Positions 14,925 to 57,722 of a DNA stretch of 64,000 bases are shown here, in pieces. Source of the stretch: Eggerthella lenta DSM 2243 (GTDB taxonomy: Bacteria; Actinomycetota; Coriobacteriia; Coriobacteriales; Eggerthellaceae); NCBI RefSeq assembly GCF_000024265.1, contig NC_013204.1, positions 248,001-312,000 of the forward strand. The letters are read 5' to 3'. Position 1 is the stretch's first letter, and each line of letters begins with the position of its first letter. The notes beneath the pieces were generated by a model. It was not told where the DNA came from. It worked only from the letters and a program-made list of their open reading frames with translations, and did no database searches. Made by a program: the position numbers and the translations under genes.

Positions 14925-17900
14925 TTGTCGTCGGTGCTTGCCCGTGCGATCTTCCCGGATGAAAGTGGTATGCTCATGGAGGCGATGTTCGGTGAAGTCG
15001 AAACTCTTGCCTACGTGATAGACAGTGAATGCCGCGTCGTCTACTTCAACAAGAAGATGGAGGTTGCGTTTCCTCATCTTGAAACGGGCATGCTTTGCTA
15101 TCAGGTCTTGCGCGGCGAGCCCGCCTCTTGTCCGGATTGCCCGCTGATTCTTGACCACGCCAGCAAGAGCCGGGTCTACAACCAGCGCATCCGGAGTTGG
15201 ATAGAGACAGAGGTGAGCGACATAGACTGGCCTGGCTCGGGCGCGTGCCACATTTTCCTGAGCCGTGTCATCGATCGGCCTGATTTGGGCGCGGCCGATC
15301 CGAAGCCTTTCGATGCCCTGACGGGCCTGTATACGCGCGAAGCGTTTTTCTCGGCGGTCTCCACTGCGATCCAAGCATATCCGGAGCGCTCGTATTGCCT
15401 GATGGCCGTTGACATCGAACATTTCAAGCTGTTCAACGAATGGTACGGCGAAGAGGCCGGAGATTTGTTTCTGGAAGAGGTGGGGAGGCTGCTCGGCGAG
15501 GCTGCAGCCGAGAGCGGCGGCGTTTCAGGCTATCTGAGCGGTGACGACTTCTGCATGCTGCTACCTTGCGACGAGGGCATGATCGAGACTCTGCGAGCCC
15601 GCATTACTCAAAGCGCGCTTCATCACGGCAAAGGCATGGGCTTTCTTCCCGCGTTCGGGCTGTTCCGCATTGACGATCGGTCCCTGCCCGTCGGCATCAT
15701 GTACGATCGCGCGTTGCTGGCTTTGGCCTCGGTCAAGGGGAATTACGCTCAGCGTTTCCGATGGTACGACGATGGTATGCTCAGAGAGATCAAGGACGAC
15801 CATTCGCTTTTGCTCGAAGTGCAGCAGGCTTTGGAGAAGGGCGAGATCACGTTCTACGCTCAGCCGAAATGCAACCTCGACACGGGCAAGATCGTGGGCC
15901 TCGAGGCTCTGGTTCGCTGGATGCACCCTGAGCGCGGGCTCATCCCGCCGATCCAGTTTATCCCCATGCTGGAGCGAAATGGGCTGATAACCGCGCTCGA
16001 TCTGCATATTTGGGAGGAAGTGTTCCGCGCTCTGCGCGCGTGGGTGGACGCCGGCCAGGCGCCCGTGCCCATTTCCGTGAACGTGTCGCGCCGCGACCTG
16101 TATGCGCTCGATGTTTTGGGCACGTTCGAGGGATTGATCGAAAAGTATGATATTCCCCCTCGTCTGCTCGCCGTCGAAATCACCGAAAGCGCGTACGTCG
16201 AGGATTGCGAGCTGATCGTGGACATCGTCGAGGGTTTCCATGACCTGGGCATCTCCGTTCATATGGACGATTTTGGCAGCGGGTATTCGTCGCTTGGCAT
16301 GCTGAAGGACGTGAACGTCGACGTCTTGAAACTGGACATGAAGCTGCTGGACGCGATAGACGCGCAAAGCCGCAAAGCCCGTAGCATTCTGGAAGCCATC
16401 ATCGGTATGGCGAACTTGCTGGACATCCGCGTGATCGCGGAGGGGGTGGAAACCGAATCCCAACGGCAATTGCTGGTGAAGATGGGGTGCCTGTACGGGC
16501 AAGGGTACTTCTTCTACAAGCCCATGCCGAAGGCGGAGTTCGAGCCTTTGATTGCGAATCGGACGAAGGTTGATTTCCGCGGCATCCATGCGGACTCCAT
16601 CGAGAGGTTCCGTATTCGCGACCTGATAGAGAGCAGGGTGCTCAGCGATGCCATGCTCGACGATATCCTGGGTCCCTTGGTGCTGTACGATCTGTACGAT
16701 GGCGAAGTGGAGCTTCTGAGCGCCAACGAGCATTACTGTCAGCTGAACGGGGTTAACGCCGTTGACCTGCACGAGCTGCGTTCCACGTTCGCGCGTCGAG
16801 CGTTCGAGTCGGATTGGGACGAGGTCATGGAAGCGTTCGAGCAAGCTCGCGAGAACGTCCCGAATGGCGCGGTCGTCGTAGTGCGTCGTATGCGCCCGGA
16901 CGGGTCGACCGCTCACCTGCTCGTCCATCTGCTGTTCCTGCGCGAGCACGAAGGCCACTACCTGTATCTGGGTTCGCTGAGGGATGTGACTCGCGAGCGG
17001 CAGCAGGCGCGTCAGCTGGAGTCCTCTCGTCGAGCGTTATCGGCTGCCACGGATGCTTCCCCGCGCGATCCGCTGCTCGTAGCGTTGGGGGAAGAGAACC
17101 GGCGAACCGCCCTGGCGCTTTCCGCCGAGCTTTCGCCCGGAGGCATGATCGGAGGATACTGCGAGCCAGAGTTCCCGCTGTACTTCGCCAACGCTGCTAT
17201 GGTGGAGCTTCTGGGTTACGACACGTACGAGGAACTGGCTGCGGGCATCGATTGGCGCGTGGGAAACACCATACATCCGGACGATCTGGCCTCGGTTGCG
17301 CTCGACATCGGGCCCGAGTATTACGTGGGGCTCGAGTACACTACCACGTACCGCATGGCTCGCAAGGACGGGACGTGGTTCTGGACGCTCGACAAAGGCC
17401 GGGTGGTCGAAGCGGAAGACGGCAGGCTTGCCATCGTGAGCGCTTGCACCGACATCACCGAAGTCATGGCAGTGCAACAGCAGCTTGCCGAGCGAAACAA
17501 ATTGTTGATCAGTCAAAACGAAGAGCTTGCATTCCTGAATGAAGATATGCCCGGTGGCTATCATCGCTGCCTCGACGCTCCCGGGTGCGATTTCCTGTAC
17601 ATGAGCGACCGCTTTCTGGACATGTTCGGCTACACGCGCGAAGAGATAAAGGAGCTGTTCGACGACAAGTACATGCTCATGGTGCACCCGGACGACCGCG
17701 ACAGCGTGGCCAAAGGCGTGACCGCGCTCAGGGAGGGCACTGCGGGGTCGGATCCGTTGGAGTACCGCATGAGAGCCAAGGACGGCTGGCGCTGGGTGAT
17801 CGACCAGAGCCGTTTCTTGGAATACGATGACACCTCGTTCCTGCAGGGCGTCGTAGTGGACGTGACGGAAACCGTGGAGCTGCGCGACATGATGAGCATG

Positions 17901-19277
17901 CTGATCGAGCACACCTCGAGCGACATCGTGCTGCTGTCATGGTCCGACAAAGAGGACGTCCGCGTGAACGTGGTGGCGTGCGGTGCGTCGAAGAAGTACG
18001 GGCTCTCGCCCGAGCAGTACGAGGATATCATTCGCGGCCAGCTGTACCTTCCGAGCGGAGACGGGGGCGGGCGCCTGGTCGACGAGATTGTCGACAAGAT
18101 CGATCGAGGCGAGAGCTTGGCGATTGTGGATCGACCGCGCTTTCCCGGGCGCGAGAACGTCTGGATGCACATTGAGGCTCGCCGCGTGGGCCTCGAGTCC
18201 TTTGAGCGTATGGCGTTGTGTTTGGTCACCGATGTGTCTTCTATGAAGAACCAGCAACAGGAGCTGTGGCTCACCAAGCGAAAGCTGGAGGGGGTTCTGG
18301 ATCAAGCCGGCGTCCAAAGCTGGGACTGGGACATCAACAGCAATCGCTTGGTGCTCTCGCGCAGCGAGCTTATGGATCGTATATTCGCAGGTCTGAGCCG
18401 CTTCGAGGACGATATGCTGGTCGTGGACGGGTTCGACCCCGAGACTATGGAGTTCCGCTTCGTGCCGCCCGACTACCAGCAGGCGTTCAGGGACTCGTTT
18501 CGGGGCGTGCGCACTGCTCGCGATCGACAGCGCTCGGTGTTTGAGATCCCGTTCACGTTCGAAGGCGAGGCGCCCTTGTGGATCGAAGTCTCGTGCGAGA
18601 CGGTGCGCGACGAGCAGGATCGGCCTGTCCGTGCGGTGGGATACTACCTTGACATGACCGATCGCAGAAACGAATCCTTGCAGAACAAAGCGAACTCCGA
18701 GGCGTTGCGGCAGCTGCGAAAAAAGAGCTTCCAGCTGCTCAAGATGGCGAAGACCGATGCGTTGACCGGGTTGCATAACCGCCAGGCGGCCATCCCGAAG
18801 ATAGAGGAGCGCCTACGCGCGGTCGAGGCGGGCGAGCTGGGCGATGCTTCGTGTGCGCTGATCATGTTGGATCTGGACTCCTTCAAGCTGGCCAACGACG
18901 TGTTCGGGCACGCGTACGGCGATCAGGTTATCGTGCATGTGGCCGAGGCTCTGAAGGAGTCGTTCCCTGGCGACGTCGTCTGCCGTATGGGTGGGGACGA
19001 GTTCCTGGTGTGGTGCGAGGACGTGGACGAGGGAGCGTTGGAGGATAGGATCGCCTCTGCGCTGCGTGCCATGGAGGTCGAACGCGTTGAGGACGGTCGA
19101 ACGTTCCTGTTCTCGGCGTCGGCCGGTTACGTGCTGGTTCCGCAGGAGGGCTTCTCGTTCGACGACTTATATCAGAAAGCGGATTCGGCGCTGTTTTCGG
19201 TCAAGATGGACGGCAAGCGCTCCTGCTCGCGATTCTGGTCTGGGATGAAGACCGTTCGCTGCGAGTTGGCCGAGTGA
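14925..19277 (+). CDS. Giant c-di-GMP signalling protein: GGDEF-EAL-PAS-GGDEF
   Basis: 1450 residues, no membrane helix seen. Order: a PAS-like sensor (~20-95) with a CPDC motif; a GGDEF-like domain (~130-275) with a degenerate SGDDF site; a complete EAL phosphodiesterase (~290-540: GLEALVRW, VNVSRRDL, EITES, DDFGSGYSSL, KLDMKL, AEGVETESQ); several PAS/PAC repeats (~560-1260); and a C-terminal diguanylate cyclase (TDALTGLHNR, then MGGDEF near 1356). It may both make and break cyclic di-GMP under control of several sensed ligands. The first GGDEF probably acts only as a GTP sensor. The start is uncertain: TTG at 14925 as listed, or ATG at 14970/14976. A sister gene lies at 53529. Confidence 0.9.
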   Translation: MSSVLARAIFPDESGMLMEAMFGEVETLAYVIDSECRVVYFNKKMEVAFPHLETGMLCYQVLRGEPASCPDCPLILDHASKSRVYNQRIRSWIETEVSDIDWPGSGACHIFLSRVIDRPDLGAADPKPFDALTGLYTREAFFSAVSTAIQAYPERSYCLMAVDIEHFKLFNEWYGEEAGDLFLEEVGRLLGEAAAESGGVSGYLSGDDFCMLLPCDEGMIETLRARITQSALHHGKGMGFLPAFGLFRIDDRSLPVGIMYDRALLALASVKGNYAQRFRWYDDGMLREIKDDHSLLLEVQQALEKGEITFYAQPKCNLDTGKIVGLEALVRWMHPERGLIPPIQFIPMLERNGLITALDLHIWEEVFRALRAWVDAGQAPVPISVNVSRRDLYALDVLGTFEGLIEKYDIPPRLLAVEITESAYVEDCELIVDIVEGFHDLGISVHMDDFGSGYSSLGMLKDVNVDVLKLDMKLLDAIDAQSRKARSILEAIIGMANLLDIRVIAEGVETESQRQLLVKMGCLYGQGYFFYKPMPKAEFEPLIANRTKVDFRGIHADSIERFRIRDLIESRVLSDAMLDDILGPLVLYDLYDGEVELLSANEHYCQLNGVNAVDLHELRSTFARRAFESDWDEVMEAFEQARENVPNGAVVVVRRMRPDGSTAHLLVHLLFLREHEGHYLYLGSLRDVTRERQQARQLESSRRALSAATDASPRDPLLVALGEENRRTALALSAELSPGGMIGGYCEPEFPLYFANAAMVELLGYDTYEELAAGIDWRVGNTIHPDDLASVALDIGPEYYVGLEYTTTYRMARKDGTWFWTLDKGRVVEAEDGRLAIVSACTDITEVMAVQQQLAERNKLLISQNEELAFLNEDMPGGYHRCLDAPGCDFLYMSDRFLDMFGYTREEIKELFDDKYMLMVHPDDRDSVAKGVTALREGTAGSDPLEYRMRAKDGWRWVIDQSRFLEYDDTSFLQGVVVDVTETVELRDMMSMLIEHTSSDIVLLSWSDKEDVRVNVVACGASKKYGLSPEQYEDIIRGQLYLPSGDGGGRLVDEIVDKIDRGESLAIVDRPRFPGRENVWMHIEARRVGLESFERMALCLVTDVSSMKNQQQELWLTKRKLEGVLDQAGVQSWDWDINSNRLVLSRSELMDRIFAGLSRFEDDMLVVDGFDPETMEFRFVPPDYQQAFRDSFRGVRTARDRQRSVFEIPFTFEGEAPLWIEVSCETVRDEQDRPVRAVGYYLDMTDRRNESLQNKANSEALRQLRKKSFQLLKMAKTDALTGLHNRQAAIPKIEERLRAVEAGELGDASCALIMLDLDSFKLANDVFGHAYGDQVIVHVAEALKESFPGDVVCRMGGDEFLVWCEDVDEGALEDRIASALRAMEVERVEDGRTFLFSASAGYVLVPQEGFSFDDLYQKADSALFSVKMDGKRSCSRFWSGMKTVRCELAE

Positions 19278-52410: not shown

Positions 52411-53382
52411 ATGACTGCCTCCGAACCCACGCCGCCCATCGCATCCCCGTCTCCTGCCGCGCCCCTCGCAAGCCAGCTTGCGGCCAACCCCTGCAGCCAT
52501 CCGTCGTTCGACCAGTTCGTCGCCACCATCGCCGCGCTGCGCGCGCCGGACGGATGCCCGTGGGATCGCACGCAGACGCACCAGAGCATCGCGCACAACA
52601 TGATCGAAGAGGCATACGAGGCGGTGGACGCCATCGAAGCCGCCGATGTCGCGCACCTGCGCGAGGAGCTGGGCGACGTGCTGCTGCAGGTGGTGTTGCA
52701 AAGCCAGATAGCTTCCGATGCCGGCGAGTTCGACATCAACGACGTGTGCGCCGACGTGAACGAGAAGATGGTCCGCCGCCATCCTCACGTGTTCGGCGAG
52801 GCGCAAGCCGCCAACGCCGGGGACGTGCTGGATCTGTGGGAACGGGTGAAGATGGCGGAGAAGGGCGCCGCCGACGAGGCGGCCGACGGTGCGGGCGAGC
52901 GGCGCGAAGGCCTGCTGGACGGCGTGCCCACCAGCTTCCCCGCGCTCATGCAGGCGCAGAAGATATCTCGCAAGGCCGCGGCCGCCGGGTTCGAGTGGGA
53001 CTCGCTTGACGGCGTGTGGGAGAAAGTGCGCGAGGAAATCGCCGAGCTGCAAGAAGCCTACGCCGTCGCGCCCAAGGCGGCGAACGGCAAGGTGGACGCC
53101 GCGGCCGCTTCCGCAGGCGCGGCCGTCGACCCCGCCGCGGCCGAGGCGGCCGTCGCCGCCGTCGAGGACGAGCTCGGCGACGTGCTGTTCTCGCTGGTGA
53201 ACGTGGGCCGCCGCATGGGCGTGGACGCAGAAGGTGCGCTGCGCTCCACCTGCCGCAAGTTCCGCGACCGATGGGCCTGGATGGAGCAAGCCGCCTGGCA
53301 GCAGGGTCGAACCATCGAAGACCTCTCCAGCGAAGAGCGCGAAACCCTGTGGAACGAGGCGAAGAAGCGCGAGCGATCGTAG
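52411..53382 (+). CDS. mazG: Nucleoside triphosphate pyrophosphohydrolase MazG
   Basis: 323 residues, two MazG domains. Domain 1: CPWDRTQTHQSIAHNMIEEA ... LREELGDVLLQVVLQSQIA with the EExx-ExxD metal ligands. Domain 2: GFEWDSLDGVWEKVREEIAE ... EDELGDVLFSLVNVGRRMG, interrupted by about 30 Ala-rich residues between its two ligand helices. It cleaves NTPs to NMP and PPi, clearing damaged nucleotides or lowering (p)ppGpp. GAAAGGATCTCC precedes the ATG. Confidence 0.94.
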   Translation: MTASEPTPPIASPSPAAPLASQLAANPCSHPSFDQFVATIAALRAPDGCPWDRTQTHQSIAHNMIEEAYEAVDAIEAADVAHLREELGDVLLQVVLQSQIASDAGEFDINDVCADVNEKMVRRHPHVFGEAQAANAGDVLDLWERVKMAEKGAADEAADGAGERREGLLDGVPTSFPALMQAQKISRKAAAAGFEWDSLDGVWEKVREEIAELQEAYAVAPKAANGKVDAAAASAGAAVDPAAAEAAVAAVEDELGDVLFSLVNVGRRMGVDAEGALRSTCRKFRDRWAWMEQAAWQQGRTIEDLSSEERETLWNEAKKRERS

Positions 53383-53528
53383 GGTCGCCTCCTGTCGTCC
53401 TGGGCGCCCGCACCGCTTCGTTCGGGTCTCCGCTTCAACCCTTTGGCACATTTGATGGCGCAGGTGGGCGTAAAGCGCTAAACTGTATCCCCATCGTCAT
53501 ACATCCTACCAAGAAGGCGAGGGGGGCG

Positions 53529-56500
53529 ATGCGTCCTGCATGGGAATTTGGAATCGAAAAAGACTCGCTGGAGGAAGAAAAAACCGACGGGGGGGGGGGG
53601 GGCTCATTCGGGCCTTCTGAGCACGACGCCCTCTCGGGTCTTCTAAACCGCAGCGGATTCAACGTGCGCGTGCGCGCATTGATCGACGCCCATCCCGATG
53701 AGGCGTATGTTCTTGTGTACGGCGACATCGATCGCTTCAAGGCGTATAACGATCTGTTCGGCACTTCGGCGGGCGATAGCCTGCTCGCTGATATCGGCGA
53801 GATGATCCGCCGCAATCTGCCGAGCAATGCGACGGCGGCTCGGTTGCGCGCCGATCATTTCATCGGCTGCTTCCCGCGTTCTCTGTTCGACGCCGATCGC
53901 ATGCTCGCCGTGTTCAACGACTGGTTCGCTGCCTATCGTCAGGACTTCACCTTCTTCGTTCGCATGGGGGTGTATTCCATCGACGATCCCGAGCTGGACG
54001 TCAACCTCATGTGCGACCGTGCGCTCTTGGCGCTGCGCGCCGCGAAGAGCGGTTCTGCGGGCAGCCGCTATGTGCTGTACGACGAGACGCTGCGTGCGTC
54101 GCTGCTGAAGGAGCAGCAGCTGGCGGGCGAGATGACTACCGCGCTCGACCGGGGGCAGTTCGTGCCGTTCTTCCAGCCTCAGTACTGCTATGCGACCGGC
54201 CGTATGATCGGCGCCGAAGTGCTCGCGCGCTGGAAGCATCCCAAGCGTGGTCTGCTGGGTCCCGCCGAGTTCATTCCCGTGTTCGAGCGCAACGGCCTCA
54301 TCTCCCGCTTCGATTACTATATGTGGGATCAGGCGTGCCGCTGCCTGCGCGCGTGGATCGACGCGCACGGTCGCGACGCCGTGCCGCATCTGTCGGTGAA
54401 CCTGTCGCGCGCCGACATCTATCGATCCGACCTGTGCTCGTATCTCAAGGGGCTCGTGGAGCGCTACGATGTGCCGCCCAGCCTGCTGAACCTCGAGATC
54501 ACCGAAAGCGCGTACATGGAATCGCCTGACCAGCTGGTTGGAGCCGTCATGGAACTGCGCCGCGCCGGCTTCACCGTGGAGATGGACGACTTCGGCAGCG
54601 GATACTCGTCGCTGAACACGCTGAAAGACGTGCCTGTGGACGTGTTGAAGCTGGACATGGGCTTCCTCGATGCGCACGAGAGCTCGCGCGGCGGCCTCAT
54701 CCTCGCCTCCATCGTGCGCATGGCGCGCTGGCTGAACCTGCCCGTCATCGCCGAGGGAGTGGAAACCCAGAAGCAGGCAGCATACCTGGCCAGCATAGGG
54801 TGCGAGTACATGCAGGGCTATCTGTTCTCGCGTCCGGTAGATCGCGAGACGTTCGAGCGCATGTTGATGGACGGCGGTCGAGAGTCCGTCAAGCGGCCGA
54901 TCATTGAGAATCTGCAGGATGATGCATCCGAGTTTTGGAACGCGGATTCCCCGGTAACCCATTTTTTCAACAGCTACGTGGGCGCCGCCGCCATCGCCGA
55001 ATACGACAACCGAACGTTGGAGATCGCGCGTGCGAACCATCAGTTCGCTGAGCTGTTCGGCATGCTCGATGATTTGGACGCGGCGGAGAGGATACGCAAG
55101 GACCTGCTGACGCAGCTGTTGGACGAGGATCGTGCCGCGCTGCATGAGGCTATTTTGCGCGCGGTGCGCGATCGCGGCGACTCCGAGAGCGAGCTGCGTT
55201 TCCGCAGCGGCGGACGAGGGCGTTGGATCCGTGTCCGCATCCGTCTGCTCTCGCGCGCGGGCAATCTCAGCAACCTCTATTTGCTTGCCGAGGAAACCAC
55301 TCAGGAGCAGGCTTTGCGCGATCGGCTGGCTGCCACGCGCGACACCATTCCGGGCGGTCTGGCGTTCTACGAGGTGGCGGATCGCATTCGTCTGTTGGAT
55401 TTCAGCGATGCCGCTGCCGATATGATCGGCTACACTCGCGAGGAATACCAGGCCCGCACGTTGGACGACGCGCTTGCGGTGGTGCATCCGGAAGATCGCG
55501 CACGCGTCGAAGCGGTGGCTGCCGAACTGGATGCGGGTGCGTCGCGGTCGTCGTGCACTATGCGCGTTCTGCGCGGCGACGGCAAGGTGGCGTGGCTGCA
55601 TCTTTCAGCGTCGACGATGTATCGAGACGAGACGGCGCTGTACGTGGTGGCCGTGCTCATCGACGTGACGAACGAGAAGGAGAATGAGCAACGCCTCAAG
55701 GCGCAAAGCGAGCTGCAGTGCCGGTTGAGCGATTCCGTTCCGTGCGGCATCGTGCGCTATACGGTGGACGACGAGCCCCGCGTGCTATTCGTCAACCGTA
55801 CGGGATGCGAGATATTCGGGTACGCCGATTTCGCTGCATATCGTGCTGGGACGGCGGGCGGTAAGATCGTACCCATCCACGATGACGACGATGAGCTGCA
55901 TGCCAAGACGGTTGCGGCGCTCAAGGCCGGGGCGGCGCCCATCGGCTTCACGTATCGTTTCGTGCGAAGCGACGGCTCGATGGGATGGATCGAGGGCACG
56001 TCGGCGCTGGAGCGCGATATCGACGGCAGGACCGTCGTCCAAAGCGCGTTCCTGGATGTGTCCGACCGCCAGCAGAAGCGCTACGAACAGGATATACACC
56101 GTTATTCGATGGTGTTGTGCTCGGTGTACGACGAGATCGTCGAGTTCGATGGCGAGAACAAGACGTACCGCTCGCTGTACTCGTCGGGCAGGACGCTCGC
56201 CGACAGAACCATGCCCATGGAAGAGGCGCTCAAGTTCTGGACCGACCATCTGCCCGAGCCGGACGATCGCTTGCGCCTACGTGCCGCGATAGACGAATGC
56301 CTTGCAGACGACGGCGCCAGCCCTATCGCCTGCACCTACCGAATGGCGTTCGAAGATAGGAGCTGCTGGTACCAGAGCATTCTGCTGCGAGTGTCGGAGT
56401 CGGCCGTGCTGTGCTGCAGCAAGGACGTGACGGAACACGTGTCGAACGAGGATCGCAGGATCATGATGCGCGTGCTGGACACCATGGGCAAGCTGCCGGT

Positions 56501-57368
56501 GGGCGTGGGCGTGTTCGCGAAGCGCGATGGCGAGGTGCGGCTGCGCTATGCCAACGACCGACTGAGCACCATGTTCGGCGACGGGCTTCCGGGTGCGCCC
56601 GATAATCCCGATTGGGATGCGCCGCTTGAGCTGAGCGAAGAGGTGAAGCGGCTCGATCAGCGTTGCGTCGACCAGGAATTCATCGCGGATGGGAACGAAT
56701 TGGACGTAGGTCTTCGTGCGGTGCGCGATAACGGAGAGGCGATTGACGTGCGGATCCAGGGCCGCGTAGCGCGCGAGCCTGACGGCGAGCTGGTTCTGTA
56801 CGCAGTGGTCAGCGACGTGACGGCGGAGCTGCGCGATCAGCGTGAACGCTCTTGGCAGAATGAGCGCTATCGCCTGCTCAGCGAGATGACGCACAAGATG
56901 AGCTTCGACTACGATTCGGATTCCGACACGGTGCTTTTGTACATGGATCGCACGGGCAAGGGCATGGAAGCCCAGGTTATCCCTCATTATTTGGAAACGC
57001 TTTCGGAAACTCGCGGCAAAATCATCCATCCTGGCAGCATGGACGACGTGCGCAGGATGTTCCAGCATGCACGGTCGGGCGCCAACGAGGTGAGCGCCGA
57101 GTATCAGGCAGACTACTTCGGCAAGGGCTATGCCTGGTACCGCGCCAATCTGTTCGTTGCCCACGACGTCGCGGGCGTGTGGCATCTCGTAGGGTTGATA
57201 GAGAATATCGATGACGAGCACGATCTGCGGTTCCGTGCGGAAAACGACGCGACGACGGGGTTGAGCAACCATACCGCCACGCAGGATCTGGTTGCCTCGG
57301 CGCTCGCCGACGCATCGGTGCGGCGGCACAGCGTGTGCGTCGCGCTCGATATCGACGACTTCAAGTAG
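53529..57368 (+). CDS. Giant GGDEF-EAL-PAS protein, cut short by an in-frame TAG; 14-G tract near its start
   Basis: 1279 residues to the TAG. Order: poly-Gly from the G tract (~21-25); a degenerate GGDEF (~35-180; RADHF at the active site, near residue 107); EAL (~200-440; AEVLARW, VNLSRADI, EITES, DDFGSGYSSL, KLDMGF, AEGVETQKQ); several PAS/PAC domains (~470-1235); and the beginning of a C-terminal GGDEF (TTGLSNHTATQ ... ALDIDDFK) that is broken by TAG where the family has Lys. The rest of that domain lies at 57369-57722. EAL retains its metal ligands, with EVL for EAL. ATG at 53529 has GAGGGGGGCG. Close relative of the gene at 14925. Confidence 0.85.
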   Translation: MRPAWEFGIEKDSLEEEKTDGGGGGSFGPSEHDALSGLLNRSGFNVRVRALIDAHPDEAYVLVYGDIDRFKAYNDLFGTSAGDSLLADIGEMIRRNLPSNATAARLRADHFIGCFPRSLFDADRMLAVFNDWFAAYRQDFTFFVRMGVYSIDDPELDVNLMCDRALLALRAAKSGSAGSRYVLYDETLRASLLKEQQLAGEMTTALDRGQFVPFFQPQYCYATGRMIGAEVLARWKHPKRGLLGPAEFIPVFERNGLISRFDYYMWDQACRCLRAWIDAHGRDAVPHLSVNLSRADIYRSDLCSYLKGLVERYDVPPSLLNLEITESAYMESPDQLVGAVMELRRAGFTVEMDDFGSGYSSLNTLKDVPVDVLKLDMGFLDAHESSRGGLILASIVRMARWLNLPVIAEGVETQKQAAYLASIGCEYMQGYLFSRPVDRETFERMLMDGGRESVKRPIIENLQDDASEFWNADSPVTHFFNSYVGAAAIAEYDNRTLEIARANHQFAELFGMLDDLDAAERIRKDLLTQLLDEDRAALHEAILRAVRDRGDSESELRFRSGGRGRWIRVRIRLLSRAGNLSNLYLLAEETTQEQALRDRLAATRDTIPGGLAFYEVADRIRLLDFSDAAADMIGYTREEYQARTLDDALAVVHPEDRARVEAVAAELDAGASRSSCTMRVLRGDGKVAWLHLSASTMYRDETALYVVAVLIDVTNEKENEQRLKAQSELQCRLSDSVPCGIVRYTVDDEPRVLFVNRTGCEIFGYADFAAYRAGTAGGKIVPIHDDDDELHAKTVAALKAGAAPIGFTYRFVRSDGSMGWIEGTSALERDIDGRTVVQSAFLDVSDRQQKRYEQDIHRYSMVLCSVYDEIVEFDGENKTYRSLYSSGRTLADRTMPMEEALKFWTDHLPEPDDRLRLRAAIDECLADDGASPIACTYRMAFEDRSCWYQSILLRVSESAVLCCSKDVTEHVSNEDRRIMMRVLDTMGKLPVGVGVFAKRDGEVRLRYANDRLSTMFGDGLPGAPDNPDWDAPLELSEEVKRLDQRCVDQEFIADGNELDVGLRAVRDNGEAIDVRIQGRVAREPDGELVLYAVVSDVTAELRDQRERSWQNERYRLLSEMTHKMSFDYDSDSDTVLLYMDRTGKGMEAQVIPHYLETLSETRGKIIHPGSMDDVRRMFQHARSGANEVSAEYQADYFGKGYAWYRANLFVAHDVAGVWHLVGLIENIDDEHDLRFRAENDATTGLSNHTATQDLVASALADASVRRHSVCVALDIDDFK
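53589..53602 (+). repeat. Homopolymer tract of 14 G
   Basis: Lies 60 bases into the coding region. Fourteen G keep the downstream domains in frame with the ATG at 53529; loss or gain of one G would stop translation early. Typical of phase-variable genes. Confidence 0.9.
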
Positions 57369-57722
57369 GTGAACGACACGTACGGTCACATTGAGGGCGA
57401 TACGTTGCTGCATGAGGTGGGCAAGGTGCTGAGATCGAGCTTCCGCGAAAGCGACGTGCTGGGTCGCGTGGGCGGCGACGAGTTCCTGCTGCTGCTGAAA
57501 AACATCGATCTCGAAGTGGCACTGGACAAGCTGGAACAGGTCAAGCGCCAGCTTGCAGCCGTGAAGGTCGGCTCGCAGGGAAAAGCCCTGTCGGTCAGCA
57601 TGGGCGTGTATGTGCCGGAAGACGATGACCTGGCGTACCGCGACGTGTTCGTGAAGGCCGACGAGGCGCTGTATCGGGCGAAGCGTTCGGGGAAGAACCG
57701 CATCTGCGTCCACGGCCGCTAG
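57369..57722 (+). pseudogene. Detached C-terminal part of the GGDEF domain
   Basis: Continues the frame of the gene at 53529 right after the TAG. 117 codons: VNDTYGHIEGDTLL, VLGRVGGDEFLLLL with an intact GGDEF signature, and the closing AYRDVFVKADEALYRAKRSG. The first codon is GTG, but there is no ribosome site. Without the missing part (DIDDFK), it cannot fold as a full cyclase. The two halves would give one 1397-residue protein if TAG were AAG. Confidence 0.85.

Follow-up and report, generated by a model that had tools for sequence, protein, structure and literature searches.

Poly-G contingency loci of Campylobacter and Neisseria lie early in an open reading frame, their length modulo 3 decides expression and several of them occur per genome. 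In the lic genes of Haemophilus influenzae, start codons placed in different frames before the repeat give rise to more than two states. In the bacterium Bifidobacterium breve UCC2003, an intragenic G-tract is reported to switch sortase-dependent pili by replication slippage, G11 accounting for about 37% and G12 for about 60% of the tract lengths in culture (PMC9187656); another article leads to the same work (PMC12104195). Phase variation of c-di-GMP phosphodiesterases is described for pdcB and pdcC of Clostridioides difficile, which are controlled by an invertible promoter (PMC9286219, PMC11868660). A review of 2025 names two sources of c-di-GMP phase variation, an epigenetic switch in Escherichia coli and, in C. 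difficile, invertible promoters (PMC11868660). In Eggerthella lenta, the capsule locus is reported to undergo phase variation by megabase inversions (PMC13174815), and a further article concerns prophage diversity (PMC8778435). In Pseudomonas aeruginosa, intergenic homopolymer indels and c-di-GMP enzymes were linked as acting together (PMC8115180); this article, PMC9393564 and PMC11652169 held nothing on the locus described below. In the titles and abstract openings of the open-access literature, no report was found of slipped-strand phase variation in Eggerthella or Gordonibacter, nor of slipped-strand phase variation of a c-di-GMP gene.

The locus lies in the E. lenta genome, a single contig of 3,632,260 bases, within a stretch of 64,000 nt (bases 248001-312000) that is referred to as the window and to which the coordinates below belong. 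A long c-di-GMP gene carries exactly 14 consecutive G, 60 nt after its first start codon (ATG1, 53529-53531), and the run encodes, together with the following C, five glycines in the ATG1 frame. The count, the position and the translation agree with the preliminary description of the window, in which the run had been proposed as a phase-variable switch. The features of the locus are the following:

53479..53484, + strand: candidate -10 element TAAACT, a predicted element whose hexamer is common to seven of the eight other orthologues
53513..53524, + strand: Shine-Dalgarno-like stretch GAAGGCGAGGGG upstream of ATG1, the same or similar in orthologues
53529..53588, + strand: conserved 20-codon leader MRPAWEFGIEKDSLEEEKTD starting from ATG1, recognised by the leader pattern and by synonymous-site counts
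53540..53542, + strand: ATG2, putative start codon in the second frame, within the pattern that matches 9/9 orthologues
53589..53602, + strand: poly-G tract of 14 G, proposed slipped-strand switch (shuffles, reading frames, orthologue comparison)
53529..57368, + strand: coding sequence at 14 G, 1279 aa, with a degenerate GGDEF, an EAL, PAS and a truncated C-terminal GGDEF domain (open reading frame, Pfam)
53619..54050, + strand: N-terminal GGDEF-like domain with degenerate signature RADHF (71.6 bits)
54132..54836, + strand: EAL phosphodiesterase domain with conserved signature residues (227.1 bits; alignment with PDB 4rni)
55008..55901, + strand: PAS domains, span of the best stretches listed (Pfam PAS_4, PAS_3, PAS_9, PAS_8)
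57243..57701, + strand: C-terminal GGDEF domain, GGDEF motif present, one TAG inside (129.7 bits)
57366..57368, + strand: in-frame TAG, a sense codon in 8/8 orthologues compared
14925..19277, + strand: homologous GGDEF-EAL gene without tract, used as control (no run of at least 7)

The tract is far longer than expected by chance. In the rest of the window G runs do not exceed 6 and C runs do not exceed 8, and the six G9 matches observed compare with a maximum of four in dinucleotide shuffles, none of 100 shuffles reaching six. The homologous gene at 14925, which had been put forward for comparison as free of such a tract, indeed has none, its longest runs being shorter than 7. Glycine codons of nine open reading frames of the window, the tract left out, are GGC in 254 and GGG in 65 of 404 cases, so that a row of GGG is not a matter of codon habit.

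Changes in tract length alter the reading frame of a genuine gene. From ATG1, the open reading frame measures 1279 aa at 14 G, 38 aa at 13 G and 30 aa at 15 G, and the early end of translation previously announced for 13 or 15 G thus holds for this start codon. At 13 G the earlier account is incomplete: the ATG1 frame stops as stated, and ATG2 (53540), which had been overlooked, then opens a frame of 1275 aa. The N-terminus is acidic in the ATG1 product (14 G) and basic in the ATG2 product (13 G). Upstream, TAAACT was seen before the leader in L010, L011, L131, L133, L134, L135 and L137, the L129 stretch ending short of the site; a scan for sigma-70 consensus promoters gave no match there.

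The EAL domain aligns with the solved phosphodiesterase 4rni (E 1.4e-59) and displays EVL in place of EAL, followed by NLS, TES, DDFG, KLD, EGVE and QGY, among which are the residues that we take to be catalytic. EAL and PAS domains follow the 14-G frame as first described, and what that reading missed is the TAG at 57366-57368, which interrupts the C-terminal GGDEF domain in E. lenta. Past this codon the remainder of the domain stays open in frame up to a stop at 57720-57722. Since the TAG cuts the domain, the E. lenta protein, if made, would probably be a phosphodiesterase without its cyclase half. A second E. lenta GGDEF match with an internal stop, here TGA, was seen at G000:C1:2994892-2995311.

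Orthologues were searched in 138 genomes of the family with the 1279-aa protein at a cut-off of E 1e-200 or better, which gave matches in 13 genomes (14 loci). An N-terminal G run of at least 7 is found in 11 of the 14 loci, and no tract in G002, G075 and the second copy of G068. Nine of the 11 tract-bearing loci share the leader ATG-CRN-CCT-GNA-TGG; the other two, in G006 and G030, have a G9 but a leader could not be recognised in them, and they are not counted among the orthologues. Among 395 genomes of the order the leader pattern occurs in ten, nine of them those of the orthologues and the tenth belonging to another family and devoid of tract. The related-locus search in the genome-contig collection found no relatives, and a scan of viral contigs for the leader pattern returned one match, without tract. 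The same scan of genome contigs gave at least 118 matching stretches, mostly from unrelated bacteria; the three Gordonibacter records used were G. pamelaeae 7-10-1-b (G111, 13 G), Gordonibacter sp. 28C (G095, 12 G) and Gordonibacter sp. Marseille-P2775 (G043, 9 G).

The nine orthologues span three genera, including Eggerthella and Gordonibacter, and their tract begins 57-65 nt after the first ATG. ATG1 is in frame with the body in E. lenta (G000, 14 G), G095 (12 G) and G043 (9 G) and out of frame in G001 (12 G), G003 (12 G), G111 (13 G), G076 (7 G), G104 (10 G) and G068 (9 G), hence on in 3/9 and off in 6/9, in both directions. Three in nine is close to the one third that a freely drifting frame would give. 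A constant length in relatives, named in the preliminary description as the observation that would speak against a switch, was not encountered, the tract ranging from 7 to 14 G between kept flanks; one genome was compared per species and these differences are differences between species. Because ATG2 is in the body frame in two of the genomes with ATG1 off (G001 and G076) and in-frame GTG and TTG codons occur downstream of the tract, the off state may be incomplete.

The closest pair illustrates the mobility of the tract. G111 and G076 (L134/L135) are 99.3% identical over 3358 aligned columns (dS 0.018), and the only internal gap between them consists of 8 bp at the tract, i.e. six G and two adjoining bases. 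Four other aligned pairs have one to three small gaps before the start codon, and a 3-bp gap in the body occurs in two pairs. End gaps were left out of these pairwise alignments, and the pairs used for alignment and for dN/dS share branches. Difference counts of 17-18 in the 5' untranslated region, a product of one-base offsets, were not used.

Behind the tract, the bodies are open over 852-1384 codons (E. lenta read past its TAG). Their dN/dS amounts to 0.15-0.23 in all seven pairs computed, including G001/G003 in which ATG1 is off on both sides. Purifying selection is thus acting on the gene body, also where ATG1 is off, and the gene is kept in genomes in which it is off. On these values a pseudogene was rejected for the family, though the C-terminus is cut in E. 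lenta. The leader shows no synonymous difference in four pairs, against 3.3-5.5 expected from the body, which we take to indicate constraint at the nucleotide level. The overlap of the ATG1 and ATG2 frames would be one reason for such a constraint; a 5' RNA signal would be another.

The tract is real, and it is one of 12 runs of at least 12 G in the genome. In E. lenta, 85 G/C runs of at least 7 were counted, of which 30 reach at least 10 (a figure obtained by merging 73 pattern matches manually), 12 at least 12 and nine at least 13. The 85 runs of at least 7 compare with about 1,790 expected from the base composition of the window, each base being taken as independent. At least one run of at least 12 is present in 55 of 119 genomes of the family. 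The surroundings were inspected for the remaining 29 tracts of at least 10 in E. lenta and for the listed tracts of at least 12 in G001 (20), G002 (8) and G003 (6), some of which have no annotated neighbour. Tracts of at least 11 in E. lenta and at least 12 in the others were sorted by coding signal, and 40 open frames, one of them from the window gene, were submitted to Pfam. Several tracts lie between genes or behind gene 3' ends.

Tracts were assigned to genes and grouped into families by eye, families being chosen for tracts of about 11 or more in at least two species. Eight families were comparable between species, and the length differs in all eight; the tract of the window gene is one of them, the three tracts of the second GGDEF-EAL gene described below make up three, and the other four are as follows. 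Between the genes for a LytR-CpsA-Psr protein and a DEAD-box helicase, an intergenic tract occupies the same place in Eggerthella with lengths of 14, 16, 13 and, at a contig end of G002, 14 (L051, L105, L122, L112, respectively). A tract in the upstream region of a GGDEF gene measures 16 and 12, one in an SdpI-family gene 13, 18 and 12, and one in an ABC-transporter gene 11, 12 and 13. For GGDEF family D, the motif conserved upstream was not seen in E. lenta within the stretch retrieved. A LuxR-type tract gene of E. lenta (L042) and one of G002 (L113) were not retained as one family, their flanks being unlike by eye.

A second GGDEF-EAL gene (G000:C1:3312536-3313912, L059; L098, L126 and L270 in the other species) contains three tracts, of 13, 13 and 12 in E. 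lenta, 9, 11 and 14 in G001, 11, 11 and 11 in G003 and 7, 9 and 9 in G. pamelaeae. Two of them lie between the ATG and the first domain, and in each of the four species exactly one of the nine length combinations tried gives a full-length open reading frame; in none of the four assemblies is the combination present the open one. The third tract is located at the 3' end. In three of the four species, one of its three frames ends at or next to the start codon of the gene that follows; in G. pamelaeae none ends exactly at that codon. In E. lenta and G001 the following gene encodes a leucine-rich-repeat protein of the BspA type, and in the other two species it is unannotated. This arrangement suggests that translational coupling may be variable at the third tract.

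Tracts of at least 12 in or beside c-di-GMP genes number 4/12 in E. lenta (two genes; 0.22 expected, P 1.4e-2 by gene) and 4/20 in G001 (0.51 expected, P 1.5e-3), values that were computed after the genes had been seen, with approximate footprints, and in which the three tracts of the second GGDEF-EAL gene (family B) are not independent. By inspection, 2/6 such tracts were counted in G003 and 1/8 in G002.

Further arrangements were seen in the same genomes. In G002, a PAS-GGDEF gene is preceded by a G14 (L117, 4062-4075) flanked by TTGCAT and TGATATACT; in such an arrangement the spacing of the promoter would vary with the number of G. A run of 15 (L054, 5017-5031; L273) is found about 50 bp upstream of an open frame that contains CheR domains; on the same strand, a small GGDEF open reading frame of 214 aa comes about 2.5 kb later. 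Three tracts (L112, L115, L116) are found at contig ends of the draft G002, as if the assembly breaks there. Tracts of G003 (L118, L119) and G001 (L109) lie near the start of BspA-type leucine-rich-repeat and FctA/VWA pilin-like open frames.

Several other readings of the tract were considered. The E. lenta genome of 2009 is reported to have been built from 454 and Sanger reads (PMC3035228). Tract counts can be off by a base, which makes single on/off calls uncertain; an error of this kind can shift a count by one and hardly explains why tracts of 7-14 G recur at one position in assemblies made independently, two of which are single-contig, so that assembly error was rejected as the whole explanation. 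An invertible promoter was likewise discarded, no ungapped inverted-repeat pair of at least 14 being found in 52900-54100 and the gene start thus lacking flanking repeats of the pdcB/pdcC type in this interval. That a poly-glycine linker or a G-rich nucleic-acid structure is kept whatever its exact length is scarcely credible: the tract does code for glycine in the on state, but 6/9 orthologues have out-of-frame lengths and GGC, not GGG, is the usual glycine codon. Long homopolymers can also provoke slippage of RNA polymerase or of the ribosome, by which one DNA length would yield mixed frames, with or without switching at the DNA level. Such slippage would allow low expression in the off genomes, but at a programmed site the offset should be constant, and the observed scatter, with ATG1 in the zero frame in a third of the orthologues and the rest off both ways, renders it very improbable.

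A less remote alternative, which we still hold to be unlikely, is that the run is hypermutable and unselected, drifting neutrally at a tolerant N-terminal linker in cells without mismatch repair and occasionally silencing the gene, with no adaptive switch. Neither MutS1 nor a MutL above the cut-off was found in the four Eggerthella genomes (each found in 11 of 14 controls), the MutL profile giving one sub-cut-off fragment of 34-36 bits in each of the four, and NucS was not found in them either (7 of 14 controls). Slips should consequently go uncorrected by these systems and would be expected to persist in Eggerthella. The intergenic and 3' positions of several tracts and the stop in the GGDEF domain of the E. 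lenta copy also fit neutral drift. On the other hand, drift accounts poorly for runs of at least 7 being so rare genome-wide while nine reach at least 13, for a tract kept at the same place in nine orthologues across genera, and for purifying selection on bodies whose ATG1 is off.

Slipped-strand translational phase variation is therefore very probably the best explanation of the tract, and the switch first proposed is supported by the range of orthologue lengths and by the pair G111/G076, which differs by an indel at the tract only. As deduced from the sequences, the polymerase would slip on the G run during replication, adding or losing G within a culture, and the slips should persist, MutS1, MutL and NucS not having been found; tract length modulo 3 would decide if ribosomes that begin at ATG1 read on into the long c-di-GMP protein. 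ATG1 is predicted to be on at 11, 14 and 17 G and to run into a stop after 29-39 codons at 12, 13, 15 and 16 G; at 13 or 16 G the frame is that of the conserved ATG2, from which the protein may be made with a different N-terminus. Cells of one clone would thereby come to be with or without the EAL phosphodiesterase. In relatives the switched protein would comprise the EAL domain and an uninterrupted C-terminal GGDEF domain, and switching should shift c-di-GMP and what c-di-GMP controls.

A broader proposal, possible and put forward tentatively, is that a set of poly-G loci serves to randomise the c-di-GMP signalling of Eggerthella and Gordonibacter. In this view, the window gene would have three states (an acidic N-terminus from ATG1 at 14 G, a basic one from ATG2 at 13 G and nothing at 12 G), the second GGDEF-EAL gene would need two tracts in frame at once, as in one combination of nine, and its third tract would set whether its stop meets the start of the gene for the BspA-type surface protein. 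If the switch is real, the signalling state of a strain may vary between its stocks, one culture differing from the next.

The contingency loci of Campylobacter and Neisseria differ from the present locus in belonging to other phyla and in having surface structures as typical targets. The Haemophilus lic loci differ from it in that the window run is a mononucleotide run, at which ATG2 would have the role of a start codon in another frame. Within the species, the reported capsule inversions are another process, slipped-strand mispairing appearing in the accessible part of that article only as a general mechanism (PMC13174815). The locus would resemble pdcB/pdcC in that a gut bacterium switches a c-di-GMP phosphodiesterase at random and heritably, as is proposed here; the reported means is an invertible promoter there and would be a coding homopolymer here, with no inverted repeats of at least 14 at the gene start (PMC9286219, PMC11868660). 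A homopolymer switch on a c-di-GMP enzyme would, if true, be a further route beside invertible promoters and the epigenetic switch. The B. breve pili, as reported, appear to be the closest in mechanism and phylum: a gut actinobacterium, a G run inside an open reading frame and a length that decides between a truncated and a full product (PMC9187656). They differ in their target, a pilus gene, in the class of the host and in the evidence, mixed lengths being reported there by deep sequencing in contrast with the comparison between species made here. This likeness would make the mechanism more credible and its novelty somewhat smaller. Overall, the type of switch is known, including in a gut actinobacterium, and the c-di-GMP target and the lineage appear to be new.
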